NCBI RefSeq assembly: GCF_013376105.1 | Contig: NZ_JAAMFM010000002.1 | Span: 186,001-250,000, forward strand | Direction of reading: 5' to 3' | Source of the DNA: Arthrobacter wenxiniae | GTDB taxonomy: Bacteria > Actinomycetota > Actinomycetes > Actinomycetales > Micrococcaceae | Length of the DNA: 64,000 bases | Made by a program: the position numbers and the translations under genes | In this document: positions 3,951 to 22,782 of the stretch, piece by piece | How the letters are laid out: the number at the start of each line of letters is the position of its first letter | How positions within the stretch are numbered: position 1 is the stretch's first letter | The notes under the pieces: generated by a model | What the model was told of the DNA's origin: nothing | The model's input: only the letters and a program-made list of their open reading frames with translations | The model's database searches: none

Positions 3951-5207
3951 ATGACTGCCACCACTTCCTCGCCCGCGTCCTCCGTTTCCGAGCTGGAGCG
4001 CCTGAAGACCCTGCACAACGGGTCGAAGCAGCCCCTGACGTTCACCGACGCCGAGTTCGAACGCCGCCTGGGCGGGCTGCGCACCATCATGGCCGAAAAG
4101 AACCTCGACGCCGTGGTCCTGACCAGCTACCACAACATCAAGTACTACTCCGACTACCTCTTCACCTACTTCGGCCGCTCCTACGCCCTGGTCGTCACCG
4201 CCGACGACTCCGTTTCCATCACCGCCAACATCGACGCCGGCATGCCCTGGCGCACCAGCTACGGCGACAACATCGTCTACACCGACTGGCGCCGCGACAA
4301 CTTCTACTTCGGCATCCAGGAAGCCCTGCGCCGCCGCGGCATCAAGGCCACCCGCCTCGGCGTCGAGGACGACACCCTCCCCGTCCTGCTCCGCGACAAG
4401 CTCCAGGCCGCCTTCCCCGACGCCGCCCTCACCGACATCTCCCAGGCCGCCATGCGCCAGCGCATGATCAAGTCCGCCGAGGAAATCGAAGTCATCAAGC
4501 ACGGCGCCCGCATCGGGGACCTCGGCGGCGAAGCCATCAAGGCCGCCATCGCCGAAGGCATCACCGAATACGAAGTCGCCCTCATCGGCACCGAAGCCAT
4601 GGTCCACGAAATCGCCCGCACCTTCCCCGACCAGGAAGTCCGCGACACCTGGGTCTGGTTCCAGTCCGGCATCAACACCGACGGCGCCCACAACTGGGCC
4701 ACCACCCGCAAGCTCCAGCGCGGGGACATCCTCTCCCTGAACTGCTTCCCCATGACCAGCGGCTACTACACCGCCCTGGAACGCACCCTCTTCCTCGGCG
4801 AACCCGACGCCCGCTCCCTGGAACTGTGGAACGTCAACGTCGAAGTCCACGAACGCGGCCTGGAACTCATCAAGCCCGGCGCCGTCTGCAAGGACATCGC
4901 CGCCGAACTCAACGAGATCTACATCAGCCACAACCTCCTCCCCAACCGCACCTTCGGCTACGGACACTCCTTCGGCGTCCTCTCCCACTACTACGGCCGC
5001 GAAGCCGGACTGGAACTGCGCGAAGACATCGACACCGTCCTGGAACCAGGCATGGTCGTCTCCATGGAACCCATGATCACCGTCGCCGACGGCCAGCCCG
5101 GCGCCGGCGGCTACCGCGAACACGACATCCTCGTCATCAGCGAAAACGGCGCCGAAAACATCACCAAATTCGGCTACGGACCCAACAACAACATCATCAA
5201 CCCCTAA
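3951..5207 (+). CDS. Creatinase (creatine amidinohydrolase), copy 2
   Basis: Same enzyme as copy 1, with all active-site residues kept (His247, Glu277, Arg350, Glu373). ATG 3951 has AAGGAG 5 nt upstream, a better ribosome site than copy 1; an in-frame ATG at 3927 lacks one. The 5' region differs completely from copy 1, so the two copies are expressed from different leaders: this one with the transporter, copy 1 with creatininase. The protein differs from copy 1 only by Val3Ala. The lack of even silent differences over 1295 bp means very recent duplication or ongoing gene conversion, unless it is an assembly artefact. Confidence 0.95.
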   Translation: MTATTSSPASSVSELERLKTLHNGSKQPLTFTDAEFERRLGGLRTIMAEKNLDAVVLTSYHNIKYYSDYLFTYFGRSYALVVTADDSVSITANIDAGMPWRTSYGDNIVYTDWRRDNFYFGIQEALRRRGIKATRLGVEDDTLPVLLRDKLQAAFPDAALTDISQAAMRQRMIKSAEEIEVIKHGARIGDLGGEAIKAAIAEGITEYEVALIGTEAMVHEIARTFPDQEVRDTWVWFQSGINTDGAHNWATTRKLQRGDILSLNCFPMTSGYYTALERTLFLGEPDARSLELWNVNVEVHERGLELIKPGAVCKDIAAELNEIYISHNLLPNRTFGYGHSFGVLSHYYGREAGLELREDIDTVLEPGMVVSMEPMITVADGQPGAGGYREHDILVISENGAENITKFGYGPNNNIINP

Positions 5208-5276: not shown

Positions 5277-6083
5277 ATGGTTACCATGACTCCTCCCGCA
5301 GCAAAGGCCGACGCCGGCAACGGCACCTCCGATTCGCGCGGGACGTCCGTGATTGTCAACGCCATCGCGGTACTGCGGTGCTTCTCGGCGGAGGAGCCCC
5401 TGCTGGGCGTGACGGAAATCGCCCAGCGCGTGGGCATGCACAAGAGCAGCGTGTCCCGGATCCTGGCCACCCTGGAGCAGGAGGAACTGGTGGAGCGGGA
5501 CACCGATTCCCGCCGCTTCAAGCTGGGACTCGGGATGATCGCCGTGGCCGGGCCGCTGCTGGCCGAGCTGGAGGAACGGCGCGCCGCCTATCCCCTGCTG
5601 CGCCGGCTGACCGAACAAACGGGCGAGACCAGCGCCCTCATGGTGTGGAACGGGCGCGAATCCATGTGCGTGGAGCAGATCGCCAGCCCCCAGCAGGTCA
5701 AGCACACAGCCCCGCTCGGCGCCCGCTACCACGACGCCCTCAGCTCCTCCGTGCAGGTGTTCCTGTCACTGGAACCGGAAGAGAAGGTGCGCATCCTGCT
5801 GCGCAACGGCACCATCTCCTACCCGGGACTGGACGACGCCGGGCTGGACGCCTACGTCCTCCGGCTCGGCGACGTCGCCCGGCGGGGCTACGCCACCAAC
5901 TACGGGGAGTCGGCACTGGACGAGGTGGGGGTCGCCGCACCGGTGTACGACCACCGCGGCAATCCCGTGGCGGCCGTCCTCATTCCGGCGCCGAAGTTCA
6001 GGGTGTCACAGGAACGGCTGCAGTTCCTGGGCGAGGCGTGTCTCGCCACCGCGCGGCTGGTCACGAGCCGCCTCGGCGGCTAG
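5277..6083 (+). CDS. IclR-family transcriptional regulator
   Basis: Likely regulator of the creatinine cassette. Residues about 25-90 form the IclR winged helix-turn-helix (ITEIAQRVGMHKSSVSRILATLEQ-like segment). Residues about 100-265 form the effector domain, with the conserved run GYATNYGESALDEVGVAAPVYD. AGGGA lies 4 nt before ATG 5277; ATG 5286 is possible. The gene follows creatinase copy 2 after its hairpin by 69 bp and is convergent with the LOG-like gene; the two stop codons share bases at 6080-6083. A candidate operator is the palindrome at 2471-2487. Confidence 0.92.
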   Translation: MVTMTPPAAKADAGNGTSDSRGTSVIVNAIAVLRCFSAEEPLLGVTEIAQRVGMHKSSVSRILATLEQEELVERDTDSRRFKLGLGMIAVAGPLLAELEERRAAYPLLRRLTEQTGETSALMVWNGRESMCVEQIASPQQVKHTAPLGARYHDALSSSVQVFLSLEPEEKVRILLRNGTISYPGLDDAGLDAYVLRLGDVARRGYATNYGESALDEVGVAAPVYDHRGNPVAAVLIPAPKFRVSQERLQFLGEACLATARLVTSRLGG

Positions 6084-9865: not shown

Positions 9866-10960
9866 GTGGCCGCCGCCCCACGCACCACCATGGCCGACGT
9901 CGCGGCCGCCGCGGGCGTGTCCAGGGCGCTCGTCTCGATCGTGATCCGCGGGGCGGCGGGAGCCAGCGACGCCACCCGCCGGCACGTGCTGCAGGTCGCT
10001 GCGGATCTTGGATATCGGCCGGACACGCGGGCGCGTCTCCTGCGCAGCAGCCGGACGCGGCTGATTGGCGTGGTCTTCAACGTCACCGAGCCCTACCACG
10101 CCGAACTTGTCGAGCTGCTGTATGAGGCCGCGGATGCCGAAGGCTATGCCGTCACGCTCAGTGCCACGGGCCCCAGGCGCGGGGAGCGGGAGGCCGTTGA
10201 ATCGCTGCTGGACCTCGGCGCGGAGGCCGTCATCATCATTGCCCCGTCCGGGACGGCGGGGCAGCTGGCGGGGTTCCCGGTCCCGGTGGTCTCCCTGCTG
10301 GGGACGGTCGGGGGCGCGGAGCCAGGCACCTTCAGCAGCGTCTCCAGCGATGAAGGTGCCGGAATCCGCCTGGCCATGGGCCACCTGCGGGGGCTCGGGC
10401 ACCGGCGGATCGCCCACATCGACGGCGGTTCCGCCGTGGGGTCCGCCGCCCGCCGCGGCGCCTACGAGGCATGCATGGACGGCAGCGGCGAGGCCGCGGT
10501 GGTGCTGCCCGGCGGACCGCTGGAGTCCGACGGCTCGCGGGCCGCGGCCGCGCTGCTCACCTCGATGGGCTGGCCGCTCCCCCCGCACGACGCCGGCCCC
10601 GCCGCCCGCGGGACCGCCGCCTCCCCGGCCCGCCCCGCCACCGGCGGACGGGCATCCGGCGCGCCGACCGCCGTCGTGATTTTCAATGACCGCAGCGCCT
10701 TGGGCGCGCTGGACACCTTCCGCGCGGCGGGGCTCCGGGTCCCCGGCGGGCTGTCCGTGGTGGGGTACGACAACTCCCGCATGGCGCGGCTGGAACACAT
10801 CAACCTCACCACCATCGGGCAGGACGGGGCGGAACTGGCGGCGGCCGCCGTCCGGAGCGCCGCGGCGCGGATTGGCGGCGGGCCGGGACAGGACGTGGTG
10901 GTCGCGCCTTCCCTGGTGCGCGGCGGGACCACGGCGGCCCCTGCTCCCCCGGGAACGTGA
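9866..10960 (+). CDS. LacI-family transcriptional regulator
   Basis: 364 aa from GTG 9866, with AGGAG 5 nt upstream; the frame is open from 9830 but lacks a ribosome site there. The HTH is MADVAAAAGVSRALVSIVIRG, followed by the hinge region and a periplasmic-binding-protein-like effector domain (FNDRSALGALD and SVVGYDNSRMARL near the end). A Pro/Ala/Gly-rich insertion of about 30 residues precedes AVVIFNDRS and is unusual. Two matching operators lie between it and the divergent dehydrogenase gene. Confidence 0.94.
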   Translation: MAAAPRTTMADVAAAAGVSRALVSIVIRGAAGASDATRRHVLQVAADLGYRPDTRARLLRSSRTRLIGVVFNVTEPYHAELVELLYEAADAEGYAVTLSATGPRRGEREAVESLLDLGAEAVIIIAPSGTAGQLAGFPVPVVSLLGTVGGAEPGTFSSVSSDEGAGIRLAMGHLRGLGHRRIAHIDGGSAVGSAARRGAYEACMDGSGEAAVVLPGGPLESDGSRAAAALLTSMGWPLPPHDAGPAARGTAASPARPATGGRASGAPTAVVIFNDRSALGALDTFRAAGLRVPGGLSVVGYDNSRMARLEHINLTTIGQDGAELAAAAVRSAAARIGGGPGQDVVVAPSLVRGGTTAAPAPPGT

Positions 10961-11057
10961 TCCCGAGCGGGCCGCAGTCCAGGTCCGGGCCAAAGATCCG
11001 GTGGCGCTGACTCCCCTGGTCATGCGGCGTGGGTTCGCCTCGATGCTGGTGCGGTTG

Positions 11058-12023
11058 CTAGTGGGGCAGCTGCCCGGCGGTTTCGGCCACTTCGGCTTCG
11101 AGTTCCTGCGCGAGGTCCCCGTGGCTGCCGAGGGCTTCGAGTTCGTGGGCGAGTTCGGCCAGTTCCGCGCCGCCGGCCATTTGGGCGGTGAGTTCGTCCA
11201 GGGTGATGTCCTTCTTGTCGTAGTAGCCGATCGACTTCCCGCGCTTGAGCAGCAGGAACCTGTCCCCCACGGGGAAGGCGTGGTGGGGGTTGTGGGTGAT
11301 GAAGATGACGCCCAGGCCGCGGTCGCGGGCCTGGAGGATGTAGCGCAGCACCACGCCGGACTGCTTCACGCCCAGCGCCGCGGTGGGCTCGTCCAGGATC
11401 AGGGCCTTCGCCCCGAAGTGCACGGCCCGGGCGATGGCCACGCACTGGCGCTCGCCGCCGGAGAGCTGGCCGATGGGCTGCTCCACGTCACGAAGGTCGA
11501 TCCCCATGTCGGCCAACTCGTTCTTGGTGATCTCCTTCATGGCCTTCACGTCCAGGCGCCTGAACGGGCCCCGCCCGGTGGTGATTTCCGAGCCGAGGAA
11601 GAAGTTGCGCCAGATCGGCATCAGCCCCACCACGGCCAGGTCCTGGTACACGGCCGCGATGCCCGAGTCCAGGGCCTCCCGGGGGCTGGTCAGCTTCCGC
11701 TCCTGGCCCATGATCTTGAACGTGCCCTCGTCGTGCTGGTGCAGGCCGGCGATGATCTTGATCAGTGTCGACTTCCCCGCACCGTTGTCGCCCAGCACGC
11801 AGGTGACCCGGCCCATGTCCACGGCCATGGTCACCTCCGTCAGGGCGATGATGTTCCCGTAGTGCTTGCCCACCCCCTCCAGCTCCATCAAGTGCACGGG
11901 CGTGTGGGTCAGGGGGTCCGTCTCGTTTTGCAGCAAGGTTTCCTGGTCAATGGTGGGCCCGGTCCCGGTGGGCCCGGCGGCGTGCTTGGCGGTTTCGTTG
12001 GAATTCATGTCATTGGCAGTCAT
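11058..12023 (-). CDS. Sugar ABC importer, ATP-binding protein
   Basis: 321 aa with one nucleotide-binding domain: Walker A GDNGAGKST, signature LSGGE, Walker B ALILDEP and switch ITHN. This is the single-domain type (FrcA/IatA-like), not the double RbsA type. About 45 polar residues precede the domain, so ATG 12023 could be too early; a later start is possible. The C-terminal tail is Glu/Ala-rich (about 35 residues). Last gene of a three-gene importer transcribed from 14144 down. Confidence 0.92.
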   Translation of the reverse strand: MTANDMNSNETAKHAAGPTGTGPTIDQETLLQNETDPLTHTPVHLMELEGVGKHYGNIIALTEVTMAVDMGRVTCVLGDNGAGKSTLIKIIAGLHQHDEGTFKIMGQERKLTSPREALDSGIAAVYQDLAVVGLMPIWRNFFLGSEITTGRGPFRRLDVKAMKEITKNELADMGIDLRDVEQPIGQLSGGERQCVAIARAVHFGAKALILDEPTAALGVKQSGVVLRYILQARDRGLGVIFITHNPHHAFPVGDRFLLLKRGKSIGYYDKKDITLDELTAQMAGGAELAELAHELEALGSHGDLAQELEAEVAETAGQLPH

Positions 12024-15745: not shown

Positions 15746-16204
15746 ATGGGCATCAGGGACGACGCCGTGGAGGTCAGGGCGCAGGGCTGGCGCACCCTCG
15801 CGGCATTGCATGGGCTGATCGAGGCGGGCTTGGAGAAGGCGCTGCAGGCGGACGCGCAGCTTTCCGTGGTGGAATTCACGGTGCTGGACGCGCTGAGCCG
15901 GCAGGACGGCTGGCACATGCGGATGCAGCAGCTGGGCCGCGCCACGGCCTTGAGCCCCAGCGCCACCACGCGGCTGGTCAACCGGCTCGAGGACCGCGGG
16001 CTCCTTACGCGCATTCTCTGCCAGGACGACCGCCGCGGCATCTACACGGAGCTCACGGCGTCCGGCTCGGAACTGCTGGTGCGCGCCCGGCCCGTCCACG
16101 ACGCCGCCCTTGAGGCGGCGCTGGCCGAGGCGGGCCAACTCCCCGAACTGGCGGCGCTGGTCCAGGCGCTCCCCCAGCTGCACGCGTCGGTCCCCGCCCG
16201 CTGA
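15746..16204 (+). CDS. MarR-family transcriptional regulator
   Basis: 152 aa. The winged-helix region includes MQQLGRATALSPSATTRLVNRLEDRGLLTR, and the wing DDRRGIYTELT. ATG 15746 has AGGAGG 7 nt upstream. Likely represses the divergent efflux gene and itself through the GTTGC palindromes. Its last 44 bases, including the stop, lie in a 65-bp segment that recurs after the inserted nuclease gene (17603-17667). Confidence 0.94.
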   Translation: MGIRDDAVEVRAQGWRTLAALHGLIEAGLEKALQADAQLSVVEFTVLDALSRQDGWHMRMQQLGRATALSPSATTRLVNRLEDRGLLTRILCQDDRRGIYTELTASGSELLVRARPVHDAALEAALAEAGQLPELAALVQALPQLHASVPAR

Positions 16205-16225
16205 GGCGCGCCTCCGGCACCGGGG
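16161..16225 (+). repeat. Direct repeat flanking the nuclease insertion, left copy
   Basis: 65 bp identical to 17603-17667 (offset 1442). It covers the last 15 codons or so of marR and 21 bp beyond the stop. One mismatch and five further matching bases extend it to the left (16155-16159). Confidence 0.93.
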
Positions 16226-16284
16226 GTCATCTCGAACGTCAACGGGCACGGCACCGGCGGTCTTCTCGAACGTCAACGAGGACG
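16217..16284. repeat. Two tandem 34-bp repeats after marR
   Basis: Two units with period 34 (16217-16250 and 16251-16284), sharing the core TCTCGAACGTCAACG with a few changes elsewhere. The core resembles the repeat GTCATCTCCAAGCTCAACGG near 34226-34245, so both may belong to one dispersed family. Confidence 0.75.
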
Positions 16285-16500
16285 GGGGGCGGCCGCACCG
16301 CCGCGCGGGCGGTGTACGGCCGCAGGAAACGGCACGCTGCGTCTATCCCTGCCCGGCTCGATCGCTCTCAGCAAGGACGGCGTATCGGCGTTGCCGTTTC
16401 ATGAAACTGCGACCCACAGCGGCTAAAGCTTGACGTACATCACCTACAAGGTAACTGTCTGATACATTCACAGTAAATAGTCAACGACGACCGGGGTGGA

Positions 16501-17595
16501 ATGATGGACTTCATTGAGAAACTTGCTGCGCTTTCTACCAAAGTCCAATCGCAGAAGAGCGTCATTGAGACCGAAGAAGCAACAAAGAATGCCTTCATTA
16601 TGCCCTTTATTTCGGCTGTTCTCGGCTATGATGTATTCAATCCATTAGAAGTTGTCCCGGAATTTACGGCCGATGTGGGGATCAAACGTGGCGAGAAAAT
16701 CGATTACGCGATCATGCGCGACGGTGATATCCAAATTCTTATCGAGTGCAAAAGAACCAATGGAGAATTAAAAGTCGAACACGCCTCTCAGCTTTTTCGC
16801 TATTTTGCTGCAACGAATGCGAGAATTGCAATTCTTACAAATGGAGAGGTCTATCAGTTTTACACTGACTTGGACGCGCCCAACCGGATGGACTCCAAAC
16901 CTTATCTCGTCTCAGACCTCAATGACGTCGATGAAACCCTGATACCGGAACTGCAAAAACTTACGAAGGCGGACTTCGATCTCGATTCAGTCATCAGCTC
17001 CGCCGAGGAGTTGAAGTATGTTGGCCAACTGAAGCGGGCCATTGGCTCCTTATTCAGGGACCCAGAGGACGACTGGGTCAAGTACTTGACGGCCAAAGTC
17101 TACGAGGGACAGTTCACGCAAAAAGTGAGGGAGCAGTTCAGAGGTCTCGTAGCCAAAGCCTCACGGCAGTATCTGACGGACCAAGTAAATGATCGGCTGA
17201 AAACCGCATTGGGACAGCCAACCGGAATCGCAAGTCCGGAACCGCAAAAATCACCTACTGTCGAGAGCGCTTCGGCAGTCGAGGCTCACCTCGAAAGTGA
17301 CGACGGTATTGTTACTACAGTGGCGGAGACGCAAGGATTCCAGATCGTTCGGGCGATTCTATGCAGTGACGTCAGGGCATCTCGCGTCTCACCCCGGGAT
17401 GCCAAGTCTTATTTTGCGATATTTCTCGATGACAACAACCGCAAGCCATTGGCACGACTCCACTTCAATCGAACCCAGAAATATCTCGGAACCTTTGATG
17501 TGGAAAAGAACGAGACACGACACCCGATCGAAGCCTTGGAAGACATCTACAACTTTGCCGACGTCCTTCGCGAGACGCTTCGAAATTACGCATAG
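16501..17595 (+). CDS. Solo restriction-endonuclease-like protein (HsdR N-terminal type, PD-(D/E)XK)
   Basis: 364 aa. Residues 60-85 hold the nuclease core: KIDYAIMRDGDIQILIECKR, with Asp68, the E-C-K motif at about 79-81, and a preceding hydrophobic strand. This is the N-terminal nuclease region of type I restriction R subunits (COG4748-like), here without helicase or methylase domains. The C-terminal 120 residues form a separate domain I do not recognise. GC content is clearly lower than the neighbours, with many A/T-ending codons, and a 65-bp duplication of the marR 3' end flanks the gene, so it was recently acquired. A start at ATG 16504 is equally possible. A role in defence against foreign DNA is inferred, not shown. 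Confidence 0.82.
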   Translation: MMDFIEKLAALSTKVQSQKSVIETEEATKNAFIMPFISAVLGYDVFNPLEVVPEFTADVGIKRGEKIDYAIMRDGDIQILIECKRTNGELKVEHASQLFRYFAATNARIAILTNGEVYQFYTDLDAPNRMDSKPYLVSDLNDVDETLIPELQKLTKADFDLDSVISSAEELKYVGQLKRAIGSLFRDPEDDWVKYLTAKVYEGQFTQKVREQFRGLVAKASRQYLTDQVNDRLKTALGQPTGIASPEPQKSPTVESASAVEAHLESDDGIVTTVAETQGFQIVRAILCSDVRASRVSPRDAKSYFAIFLDDNNRKPLARLHFNRTQKYLGTFDVEKNETRHPIEALEDIYNFADVLRETLRNYA

Positions 17596-17602
17596 TCGCT
17601 GA

Positions 17603-17667
17603 TCCAGGCGCTCCCCCAGCTGCACGCGTCGGTCCCCGCCCGCTGAGGCGCGCCTCCGGCACCGGGG
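17603..17667 (+). repeat. Direct repeat flanking the nuclease insertion, right copy
   Basis: Exact copy of 16161-16225, starting 8 nt after the nuclease stop codon. It contains the severed 3' end of a marR gene including its TGA, with no marR body in front, so it is a remnant of the insertion event. Confidence 0.93.
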
Positions 17668-17741
17668 AGGACGCGATGGACATTTGATCCCGATAAATCA
17701 GCCTCAATAATCCATTTCGACCTCCTGGCCGTCGCGGACAC

Positions 17742-17788
17742 AAAAAAGCGCGGCCACCACACGGGAAAACCCGGTGCGGCGGCCGCGC
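17742..17788 (-). terminator. Rho-independent terminator of sucCD
   Basis: On the minus strand a long GC hairpin (GCGCGGCC outer stem, CACCGGG/CCCGTG inner stem, loop TTTT) is followed directly by TTTTTT. It begins 13 nt after the sucD stop. This is the clearest intrinsic terminator in the window. Confidence 0.9.
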
Positions 17789-17800
17789 CCCTCAGACGGA

Positions 17801-18703
17801 CTACAGGGCCGCGTAGACCTCGCGCAGCAGCGTGGCGGTCTCGGACGGCGTCTTGCCGACCTTGACGCCGGCAGCCTCGAGGGCTTCCTTCTTGGCCTGT
17901 GCCGTTCCCGCGGAGCCGGAGACGATGGCGCCGGCGTGGCCCATGGTCTTGCCCTCGGGAGCGGTGAAGCCGGCCACGTAGCCGACAACCGGCTTGGTGA
18001 CGTTGGCCTTGATGTACTCGGCCGCACGCTCCTCGGCGTCCCCGCCGATCTCGCCGATCATCACGATGGCCTTCGTTTCGGGGTCGGCCTCGAAGGCGGC
18101 AAGCGCGTCGATGTGCGTGGTGCCGATGACGGGGTCGCCGCCGATGCCGATCGCGGTGGAGAAGCCGAGGTCGCGCAGTTCGTACATCATCTGGTAGGTC
18201 AGCGTCCCGGACTTGGACACCAGGCCGATGGGGCCCTTGCCGGTGATGTTGTTCGGGGTGATGCCGACCAGGGCCTCGCCGGGGGTGATGATGCCGGGGC
18301 AGTTCGGGCCGATGATGCGGGTCACCTGGTTGCCGGACGCGTCCAGCTTGGACTGGGCCAGGGCCCAGAACTCGGCGGAGTCCTGCACGGGCACGCCTTC
18401 GGTGATGACAACCACCAGCGGCACGGAGGCCTCGATGGCCTCAACCACGGCGTCCTTGGTGAAGGCGGGGGGGACGAACACGATGGAAACGTCGGCGCCG
18501 GTCTCGGCAACCGCTTCCTTCACGGTGCCGTAAACGGGCAGTTCAACGCTGCCGTGGACCACCGTGGTGCCGGCCTTGCGTGCGTTCACGCCGCCCACCA
18601 CCTGGGTGCCGGCCTTGAGCATGAGGGCGGTGTGCTTGGTGCCTTCGCCGCCGGTGATGCCCTGGACGATGACCTTGGAGTCCTTGTTCAAGAAGATAGA
18701 CAT
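17801..18703 (-). CDS. sucD: Succinyl-CoA synthetase, alpha subunit
   Basis: 300 aa. Forms succinyl-CoA ligase with SucC, making ATP or GTP in the TCA cycle. The CoA-binding Rossmann domain carries [13 protein letters not shown]; the later [13 protein letters not shown] and the phospho-His segment [15 protein letters not shown] are canonical. It starts 30 bp after sucC ends, in one operon with the terminator at 17788-17742. Confidence 0.97.
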
Positions 18704-20095: not shown

Positions 20096-22717
20096 TCAGG
20101 CTTCCACCTTGGTCAGCGGCGCGTAGCGCAGCAGCAGCCGCTTCTCGCCAATGCTGAACTGGACGGTGGCCACCATTTTGTCGCCGGCGCCCTGCACGGC
20201 CGAGACGGTGCCGTCGCCAAAGGCCGTGTGGTTGACCTTGTCCCCCACCACCACCGCGACGACCTCCTTTTGCGGCTGCACCCGGCCGGCCGCGGCCCGG
20301 GCGGAGATGCTGGGCGGCAGCTGGCCGGCGTCGCGCCCGCCCACCGCGGAGCCCGCGCCCCAGAAGGAGCCGGAGTACCGGCTGCTGCCAAAGGCTCCCC
20401 CGGACGGAGGGGCCAGGCGCGCCATGCCCTCGCGCTTCCACTCGATCAGCTCCGCCGGCACTTCCTCGATGAACTGGCTGGCGGGGTTGTACTGGCTCTG
20501 CCCCCACAGGCTGCGGACCTCGGAGCGGGTCAGGTACAGGCGCTTGCGGGCGCGGGTCAGCCCCACGTAGGCCAGGCGCCGTTCCTCGGCCAGCTCCTTG
20601 GGATCGGTGGCGGAGCGTGAGTGCGGAAAGATCCCATGCTCCATGCCGGTCAGGAACACCACGGGGAATTCGAGCCCCTTGGCGGTGTGCAGCGTCATCA
20701 GCGTGACGACGCCCAGCCGCTTGGCCTCGGCCACCGCCGCCGCGGCTTCCGCCTCCGAACCGCCGGGCGCGTCGGGAATCTGGTCGGCGTCGGCCACCAG
20801 CGACACCTGTTCCAGGAACCCGCCCAGCGTCCCGTCGGGGTTGTCCTTCTCAAATTCGCGCACGACGGCGAGCAGTTCCGCCAGGTTTTCCACGCGCGAC
20901 TCGTCCTGGGGGTCCGTGGAACCGCGCAGCGCCTCCAGGTAGCCGGACTGTTCCAGCACGGCCTCCAGCGCCGTGGCCGGGCCGGAGCCGGCGGCCACCT
21001 CGGCGAGGTCCCCCATCATCTTGGCGAAGGTGGTGACCGCGTTCAGCGAGCGGGTGGCCAGGCCGGGGGCCTCGTCCGCGCGGGCCAGGGCGGCGGAAAA
21101 GGAGATCCGTTCGCGCTCGGCGAGGGACGCCAGGGCGCCTTCGGCGCGGTCCCCAATCCCGCGCTTGGGTTCGTTGAGGATCCGGCGCAGGTTGACGTCG
21201 TCGTCCGGGTTGACCAGGGCGCGCAGGTAGGCGAGGGCGTCCTTGATTTCCTTGCGCTCGTAGAAGCGGGTGCCGCCCACCACCCGGTAGGGCAGGCCGG
21301 TACGGACCAGGATGTCCTCGATGGCGCGCGACTGGGCGTTGGTGCGGTAGAAGATGGCGACGTCGCCGGGGCGGATGTCGGTCTCGTCCTGCAGCCGGTC
21401 GATCTCCTCCGCGATGAAGCGCGCTTCCTCGTGCTCGGACTCCGCCACGTAGCCGATGATCTTCTCGCCGTCGCCCTCGGCCGTCCACAGCCGTTTTTCG
21501 CGCCGGTTGGGGTTGCGGGAAATGACGGCGTTGGCGGCGCTGAGGATGTTCTGGGTGGAGCGGTAGTTTTGCTCCAGCTTGATGGTGGCGGCGCTCGGGT
21601 AGTCCTTCTCAAACTCGACGATGTTGCGGATGTCCGCGCCGCGGAAGGCGTAGATGGACTGGTCGGAGTCGCCCACCACTGTCAGCTCCGCCGCCTCCAT
21701 GCCGGCGCTCGGGGCCGCCGAGACGTCCTCCCCGACGATTTCGCGCACCAGTGCGTACTGTGCGTGGTTGGTGTCCTGGTACTCGTCCACCAGGACGTGG
21801 CGGAAGCGGCGCCGGTAGGAGTCGGCCACCCCGGGGAACGCCCGGAACATGTAGACGGTTTCGGCGATGAGGTCGTCAAAGTCCATGGCGTTGGCCTGGC
21901 GCAGGCGCTGGGTGTAGCCCTTGTAAACCTCGGCCACGGCGGCTGCGAAGGGGTCCTTGAAGTCGGTGTTCATGGAGTTTTCGTCGGCGTCGATGAGCTC
22001 GTTCTTCAGCGCCGAGATCTTGTGCATGATGGCCTTGGGCGCAAACTTCTTCGGATCCAGGTCCAGGCCCTTGGACACCAGCGTGATCAGGCGCAGGGAG
22101 TCGGCGGAGTCATAAATGGAGAAGTTGGTATTGAGCCCGATCGTCTTGGCCTCGCGGCGCAGGATGCGCACGCAGGAGGAGTGGAAGGTGGAGATCCACA
22201 TGGTCTTCGCGGCGTCGCCGATGAGCGCGTGGATGCGCTCGCGCATCTCGGCCGCGGCCTTGTTCGTGAAGGTGATGGCCAGGATCTGGCCGGGGTGCGC
22301 CCGGCCCGTGGCCAGGAGGTAGGCGATGCGGTGGCTCAGGACGCGGGTCTTGCCCGAGCCGGCGCCGGCCACGATGAGCAGCGGCGAGCCGGCATGGACC
22401 ACCGCGGCCTCCTGCTGCGGGTTCATCCCCTGCAACAGACCGGCCGCGTCGGGCCAGCGGCTCCCCGCACCGGGGTGCGCGGCCCCGCCGGCCGCACCCG
22501 GCACGGCCCCACCCGGCTCCGCACCCAACGCCGCGGGGTCCGCCAGGCCCGGTTCGGGCGCGTCGGCGCCGGGGTCGTCGGCGTCGGACGGCTCCTTCGC
22601 AGGAGCGCCCGCGGGCGCTCCTGCGAAGGAGGGCGCGGGAAAGCTCGGCAGGAGCCCGGCGGCGCGCTCGGCGGCGGACTTGGGCTTTTTGGCATACGGG
22701 TCAAACAACATGTCCAT
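20096..22717 (-). CDS. pcrA: ATP-dependent DNA helicase, UvrD/PcrA family
   Basis: 873 aa from ATG 22717 (MDMLFDPYAKKPK). SF1A helicase with Walker A VAGAGSGKTRVL, motif II VDEYQDTN, motif III GDSDQSIYAFRGA, and later TLHTAKGLEFPVVF and VGLTRARKRLY. A disordered Pro/Ala/Gly-rich linker of about 90 residues comes before the helicase core; its DNA holds a 40-bp perfect palindrome (22592-22631). The C-terminal Tudor-like region (VGDKVNHTAFGDGTVSAVQG) is the PcrA type that contacts RNA polymerase. A role in nucleotide-excision repair and replication is expected from the family. Confidence 0.95.
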   Translation of the reverse strand: MDMLFDPYAKKPKSAAERAAGLLPSFPAPSFAGAPAGAPAKEPSDADDPGADAPEPGLADPAALGAEPGGAVPGAAGGAAHPGAGSRWPDAAGLLQGMNPQQEAAVVHAGSPLLIVAGAGSGKTRVLSHRIAYLLATGRAHPGQILAITFTNKAAAEMRERIHALIGDAAKTMWISTFHSSCVRILRREAKTIGLNTNFSIYDSADSLRLITLVSKGLDLDPKKFAPKAIMHKISALKNELIDADENSMNTDFKDPFAAAVAEVYKGYTQRLRQANAMDFDDLIAETVYMFRAFPGVADSYRRRFRHVLVDEYQDTNHAQYALVREIVGEDVSAAPSAGMEAAELTVVGDSDQSIYAFRGADIRNIVEFEKDYPSAATIKLEQNYRSTQNILSAANAVISRNPNRREKRLWTAEGDGEKIIGYVAESEHEEARFIAEEIDRLQDETDIRPGDVAIFYRTNAQSRAIEDILVRTGLPYRVVGGTRFYERKEIKDALAYLRALVNPDDDVNLRRILNEPKRGIGDRAEGALASLAERERISFSAALARADEAPGLATRSLNAVTTFAKMMGDLAEVAAGSGPATALEAVLEQSGYLEALRGSTDPQDESRVENLAELLAVVREFEKDNPDGTLGGFLEQVSLVADADQIPDAPGGSEAEAAAAVAEAKRLGVVTLMTLHTAKGLEFPVVFLTGMEHGIFPHSRSATDPKELAEERRLAYVGLTRARKRLYLTRSEVRSLWGQSQYNPASQFIEEVPAELIEWKREGMARLAPPSGGAFGSSRYSGSFWGAGSAVGGRDAGQLPPSISARAAAGRVQPQKEVVAVVVGDKVNHTAFGDGTVSAVQGAGDKMVATVQFSIGEKRLLLRYAPLTKVEA
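22592..22631. repeat. 40-bp perfect palindrome inside pcrA
   Basis: Twenty bases from 22592 (CTCCTTCGCAGGAGCGCCCG) are followed at once by their exact reverse complement. It falls in the codons for the Pro/Ala/Gly linker ahead of the helicase core. It could extrude as a cruciform or form a loopless mRNA hairpin. Confidence 0.95.
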
Positions 22718-22782
22718 GGTGCCATCCAGTCTAGTTGCCCCCACCGACAGGGCCTGCGGCACCCTGTGCACAACCGGGCCTG

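Follow-up and report, generated by a model that had tools for sequence, protein, structure and literature searches.

The 64,000-nucleotide stretch of DNA analysed here (hereafter the window) carries an intact marR gene (15746–16204, + strand; MarR_2, 48.5 bits), followed on the same strand by a solo gene for a 364-aa HsdR_N-type nuclease (16501–17595), assigned from its open reading frame (ORF), Pfam, PHROGs and alignment, and then, on the opposite strand, by an ORF that we take to be sucD (17801–18703). The 3' end of marR is present twice on the + strand. Copy A (attL-like, 16155–16225) comprises the final 50 bp of marR, stop codon included, and 21 further bp, and copy B (attR-like, 17597–17667), which starts 1442 bp from the start of copy A and one base past the nuclease stop codon, is a remnant of the marR end with no gene body. 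The original prediction described two identical 65-bp copies, one of them such a remnant; both are confirmed, within a 71-bp repeat (70/71 identical) whose lone mismatch falls at position 6 and whose last 65 bp are identical. Given this length and identity, the repeat is not a product of chance. In a search of 23 genomes of the genus with the 121 bp around copy A, the window's own genome matched at just these two places.

The nuclease is the only plausible gene between the repeat copies; the other ORFs listed there are shorter overlapping frames. Measured in 100-base intervals, the nuclease gene has a G+C content of ~40–57% compared with ~67–79% in the flanking genes, which bears out the prediction that it is encoded in AT-richer DNA. 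The spacer between copy A and the nuclease (16226–16500, +) remains G+C-rich over its first ~165 bp, to ~16390, and then passes into an AT-rich nuclease leader; it has no match in plasmid or phage collections. Two repeats of the dispersed type sit at the junctions: X (16222–16291, +), made of two 34-bp units, and Y (17664–17732, +), an imperfect palindrome of ~62–66 nt that starts at the end of copy B.

As predicted, an integrase was not found: a tyrosine integrase HMM with 14 seeds (from 14 of 20 fetched loci), a profile that other integrases can escape, detected none in the 64-kb window, and the 11 integrase matches in the genome all lie away from the contig that holds it. The accompanying statement that methylase, specificity and helicase genes are missing nearby held for the first two, neither of which occurs in the bracket, and failed for the third, as an ORF that is presumably a UvrD/PcrA-type helicase (20096–22771) lies 2.5 kb from the nuclease with no evident link between them.

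Pfam assigns HSDR_N to the 364-aa protein at 48.4 bits (cut-off 25.1), in agreement with its original description as HsdR-N-like, along with HSDR_N_2 at 32.3 bits, and recognizes no helicase motor in it. The protein is also a full-length match to PHROG 4225, an 'endonuclease' family (415 bits, 3.7e-124), with residues 1–363 aligned to profile positions 1–354 of 357, and its homologues carry the annotation 'type I restriction endonuclease' on plasmids and 'endonuclease' in several phages. The suggestion of an undescribed system is therefore not supported: the nuclease family is already catalogued, and what recurs around it is the gene-end bracket. PADLOC 2.0.0 yielded no specific model match, only a weak partial type IIG match (19.6 bits) that is found in 45 of 69 aligned sequences, and among the titles and abstract openings of the literature searched, by terms other than PHROG 4225, there was no functional study of this nuclease.

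Across the 69 aligned sequences (the window's included), all of which match PF04313, residues E25, E26, D68, E82, K84, Q97 and Y101 are invariant. We take D68-E82-x-K84 to be the PD-(D/E)XK motif and Q97-x3-Y101 to be the QxxxY motif, so that the predicted PD-(D/E)XK core appears intact at the level of sequence. In five pairs of relatives with computable dS, dN/dS was 0.02–0.12, with dS high in two of the five, and the family is therefore under purifying selection; at the window gene itself synonymous sites are saturated and the ratio is not computable. The invariance of catalytic-type residues, together with this selection on the relatives, argues that the protein is probably an active nuclease.

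A structure model built from the 69 sequences reached a mean pLDDT of 88.3 and a pTM of 0.59, and replaced a poorer one from 24 sequences (pLDDT 73.1). In the PDB it most resembled the fold of an HsdR fragment (3h1t, E 6.6e-3) and that of the DrdV enzyme, with no E-value below 0.001, and a viral model whose annotation reads type I R protein N-terminal domain matched at 2.6e-9. The C-terminal part (residues ~274–363) is modelled as a helix, five strands and a helix. It has no Pfam match in the window protein or in the 69 aligned sequences, and the PDB fold search returned only weak matches such as YkuJ and AMPK chains, in line with the original description of this domain as unassigned.

We compared the marR site with the congeners. 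The marR gene has a match in 10 of the 23 genus genomes, its own included (E ≤ 1e-20), and sucD lies near marR in eight of the nine congeners that have it; in the ninth (G010), sucD was not found in the 5.6-kb stretch with marR. In three of the nine (G012, G003 and G013) the two genes are directly adjacent with a gap of ~150–177 bp, and by gene order among other species of the genus this arrangement is the empty site that the original prediction had proposed to look for. The nuclease is absent from the marR stretches of all nine congeners and present in one of the 23 genus genomes, the opposite of a gene fixed at this site in all relatives. With the 121-bp query, single matches were found at marR in five congeners. 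Insertion behind marR with duplication of its 3' end is well supported by the repeats and by the adjacent marR and sucD. An integrase-bearing element or phage gene at marR was found neither in the window nor in the congener matches, which weighs against an att-bracketed origin, and a 23-base piece of the 65-bp core occurred in no viral contig examined.

The marR–sucD interval (16205–17800 in the window, and its counterparts in congeners) is a variable spot. In G001, G017, G022 and G015 it holds an ORF that appears flavoprotein-like by eye, and in G011 such an ORF together with another. Other genes thus occupy the interval in five of nine congeners, so that genes come and go here, and the bracket could conceivably reflect an ordinary duplication of the marR end followed by gain of an unrelated gene between the copies. 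We consider this very unlikely: a scan for direct repeats that flank the nuclease on both sides at no more than 500 bp, with palindromic and multi-copy repeats removed, found none at 623 shifted control positions, and a comparable bracket surrounds a member of this gene family at another locus (L353/L355, described below).

The same scan found close brackets at 6 of 161 nuclease loci (5 of 160 without the window), where the 161 loci represent 150 distinct nuclease sequences, include the window that prompted the search and count L353 and L355 separately. Clean gene ends among these six are confined to the window and to L353/L355, which form one event, and the remaining three (L033, L089 and L316) are of other kinds. 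Over wider distances the counts were 9 of 161 compared with 13 of 621 control positions within 1000 bp, and 10 of 161 compared with 20 of 618 within 1500 bp; before filtering, 11 of 81 loci compared with 15 of 160 control positions had a repeat within 2000 bp. An earlier scan of 81 loci and 147 control positions gave scores of at least 40 in seven and three, respectively. The bracket signal close to the gene is real, but few clean events carry it; brackets are missing from most loci and the wider scans show little or no excess, both of which count against an att-bracketed origin.

Several candidates were set aside as gene-end cases on a reading of their ORFs and sequence. At L037 related genes stand in tandem array; the repeats at L089, L092, L071 and L069 have the look of interspersed Pseudomonas elements; L057 involves a SulP-like gene fragment; L033 an ssb-like fragment with no clean gene end; and L316 looks like a G+C-rich near-palindrome despite passing the filter.

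The clearest sister case lies in a second genus, in genomes G188 and G081 (L353 and L355, respectively). Here the nuclease stands alone between an intact gene, a SAM methyltransferase by Pfam, and a remnant of that gene's 3' end that has its own stop codon. The last codons differ between intact gene and remnant, as though the gene had received a new end. The methyltransferase is present in 24 of 27 genomes of this genus (E ≤ 1e-40), and the nuclease accompanies it at 5 of the 20 loci listed, behind the gene in G188, G081, G208 and G164 but ahead of it in G027; among these 20 loci, only those of G188 and G081 show the remnant. In the four genomes with the nuclease behind the methyltransferase gene, the two genes are convergent. 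At a further locus, L313, 486 bp at 92.8% identity and 46 bp, which we read as the 3' end of an ABC gene, are duplicated around the nuclease and a 187-aa ORF.

Other brackets involve tRNA genes. At L066, 21 bp from the 3' end of a tRNA-Ser gene are duplicated, and the resulting bracket, wider than the 1500 bp maximum tested in the scans, encloses a Fic gene and the nuclease with no intact integrase found; it is the sole tRNA-end bracket among the 160 loci checked for this feature. At L305, where again no intact integrase was found, a 28-bp duplicate covers the 3' end of tRNA-Leu, and a 92-aa ORF adjoining the tRNA matches the N-terminus of a tyrosine integrase in 46 Arthrobacter phage records (best E 1e-8), with 38–39% identity among the 15 matches listed and 49% to a fetched integrase locus; Pfam and PHROGs did not recognize this fragment. 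Loss of an integrase is therefore visible in one sister case, and together with the tRNA brackets this favours, for the nuclease family, a reading as cargo left between att sites. A 15-nt copy of a tRNA-Ser 3' end at L365 lies on the same side of the nuclease as the tRNA.

These brackets also bear on the idea that the nuclease drives its own insertion, cutting near gene 3' ends and being copied in by repair as a homing-type unit. The nuclease is indeed alone in two independent gene-end brackets (the window and L353/L355), and the 81 loci of a second set (80 family loci and the window) fall into 48 syntenic groups, a number that depends on the tblastx cut-off and may split related sites; the window is alone in its group. 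However, the targets (marR, the methyltransferase, the ABC gene, tRNA-Ser and tRNA-Leu) have no common sequence by eye, most loci lack a bracket, and L305 keeps its integrase fragment. We regard self-driven homing as highly improbable.

X directly follows copy A and Y directly follows copy B, each starting within a few bp of the point at which the copies diverge. X has five matches (75–80%) in congener G006, and three of these, inspected by eye, fall at the ends of ordinary-looking ORFs or between such ends. For Y, 19 of 20 matches in G006 fall within it (some being one place on both strands), and there are four matches in G009 and three other places in the window's own genome. Because copy B is followed by Y and then by sucD, the right flank is native. 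At two further loci, in the own genome and G006, an ORF lies between inverted copies of Y (L245, 1343–2506; L247, 1084–2550) and resembles what we assume to be an AbiEi-type antitoxin.

The position of X and Y raises a possible alternative, which we hold to be less likely than an att-bracketed origin: that the duplicated end arose by joining two alleles of the marR 3' region, with no part played by an integrase. A donor carrying marR, X and the nuclease would have recombined with the recipient by homology on the left, in marR, and by an illegitimate join on the right, inside the end of the recipient marR. Homology-facilitated illegitimate recombination is described in PMC3240628. In its favour, both dispersed repeats begin where the copies diverge, the DNA from copy A to ~16390 is host-like in G+C, copy B starts one base past the nuclease stop codon, and the long duplication at L313 would be unusual for an att site. 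The host-like, G+C-rich X fits a chromosomal donor as well as it fits an element. This account nevertheless leaves the tRNA 3'-end brackets and the L305 integrase fragment unexplained, and it requires a donor with the nuclease already behind marR, none of which exists among the 23 genus genomes.

The distribution of the nuclease is wide. It is encoded by 88 of the 395 genomes sampled from one taxonomic family, presumably Micrococcaceae to judge by 11 loci that share an identical gene with named records, and spans 22 of 32 genera; matches occur in 18 of 50,697 phage records and 47 of 72,556 plasmid records, 23 of the latter 47 covering at least 80% of the query. On genome contigs, 255 of 283 pattern stretches encode a relative, and viral contigs hold at least 404 relatives among the 600 stretches listed. 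From these we drew a genome set (the best 80 of 255) and a viral set (the best 80 of at least 404); the integrase HMM found an integrase in 24 of the 80 viral loci, in 4 of the 80 genome loci and in none of the 81 loci of the second set. Among the 47 of 80 viral contigs that are at least 25 kb long, the gene lies within 500 bp of a contig end in eight, compared with 1.1 expected, these ends being contig ends and not necessarily att sites.

In five of seven phage records that we opened (Juicebox, IPP25, ANDSL2_ph1, FNU_1P and EG-TP1), a repressor or other DNA-binding gene, the nuclease and an integrase follow one another on one strand, and in three of these five a metallo-protease gene adjoins the nuclease. 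The annotation of the sixth (P7.1) lists hypothetical proteins only, and in the seventh, a Porphyromonas phage, the nuclease lies between HicAB and neck and tail genes. This usual place near the integrase of temperate phages offers an ordinary source for an att-like bracket.

Three observations on individual loci stand apart. Seven Pseudomonas homologues (L067, L073, L076, L088, L094, L096 and L098) have a tRNA-Gly gene 1–3 kb away, which may mark an island site. At L063, the nuclease is 248 bp downstream of a tRNA-Thr (5681–5753) and an integrase (9963–11150) follows ~3 kb beyond, which makes the locus a candidate full-size relative of the tRNA-bracketed case; a duplicate of the tRNA-Thr end was not found in it. 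At L024, which carries the same gene as L304, a 22-nt repeat at 4052 and 7522 flanks the nuclease region and looks like a CRISPR repeat by eye.

We consider it somewhat more probable than all the alternatives together that the nuclease gene is att-bracketed cargo that has lost its integrase and has been kept as an anti-phage nuclease. Positions 16226–17596 would be the residual cargo of an element that had inserted itself at the marR 3' end, with the two copies corresponding to attL and attR and 65–71 bp to the core. Copy A would have restored marR upon integration, and copy B would be the displaced original end, followed by native DNA (Y and sucD). As a common passenger of temperate phages, whose lysogeny module places it next to the integrase or a short way off, the nuclease would have entered close to an att site; the integrase and the remainder may then have been lost, or the piece may have been moved by an integrase acting in trans, leaving one selected gene. 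The integrase origin of the bracket at marR itself is an inference.

What the nuclease does can be proposed along similar lines. Its occurrence in lysogeny modules, on plasmids and as a solo chromosomal gene argues that the host or resident element gains from it, most simply through the exclusion of other phages, and the protein is most likely a prophage-type anti-phage effector. The N-terminal PD-(D/E)XK domain would cut DNA, and the C-terminal domain would choose which DNA is cut (for example modified, foreign or structurally distinct), making a cognate methylase unnecessary. Since there is no methylase beside the nuclease, discrimination must lie in the protein or its expression, and we favour the C-terminal domain as a reader, possibly of modified or unusual DNA. 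A bolder version, which we think improbable, is that the gene is a one-gene mobile defence unit that inserts repeatedly behind gene 3' ends and rebuilds the gene with no integrase of its own, moved by phage integrases in trans or by its own cut and telling self from foreign through an undescribed C-terminal domain in place of a methylase.

The att-cargo reading gives a very widespread phage nuclease family a concrete route by which it could settle in chromosomes as one gene on its own. Should the protein restrict phages with no methylase to help it, the conserved domain at its C-terminus would represent a new reader of self and non-self. The locus also suggests a route to cargo genes worth testing, namely a search for solo genes between duplicated gene ends.

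Among known systems, the closest relatives of the window protein are the PHROG 4225 endonucleases of temperate phages, such as gp33 of Corynebacterium phage Juicebox and IPP25_00002 of Streptococcus phage IPP25, to which it is homologous over its full length. In contrast to the phage genes, which lie between repressor and integrase in five of seven cases, the window gene stands alone on the chromosome between gene-end copies. As an element, the locus resembles a CIME, which PMC5704250 defines as a decayed element that has lost its integration and transfer genes and kept attL and attR: the window likewise has att-like gene-end repeats around cargo and no tyrosine integrase was found in it. It differs in that its cargo is a single gene. 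No parent element at marR was found in congener matches or viral contigs.

Compared with restriction enzymes, the protein shares the HSDR_N domain, catalytic-type residues and top fold match (3h1t) with the N-terminal nuclease domain of type I HsdR, but it lacks the helicase motor and has a different C-terminal domain, and its gene has marR and sucD as neighbours with no hsdM or hsdS in the bracket. Type IV (modification-dependent) restriction offers a further possible comparison, for which a modified-base-reading domain would be expected; in the C-terminal part Pfam gave no match and the fold matches are weak. A likeness by description connects the window protein to DDV75_03095, which also has an HsdR N-terminal domain: according to PMC8713573, this HsdR_N-annotated gene is carried by a phage-resistant Campylobacter jejuni strain and absent from a phage-sensitive one, and its role is called unclear.
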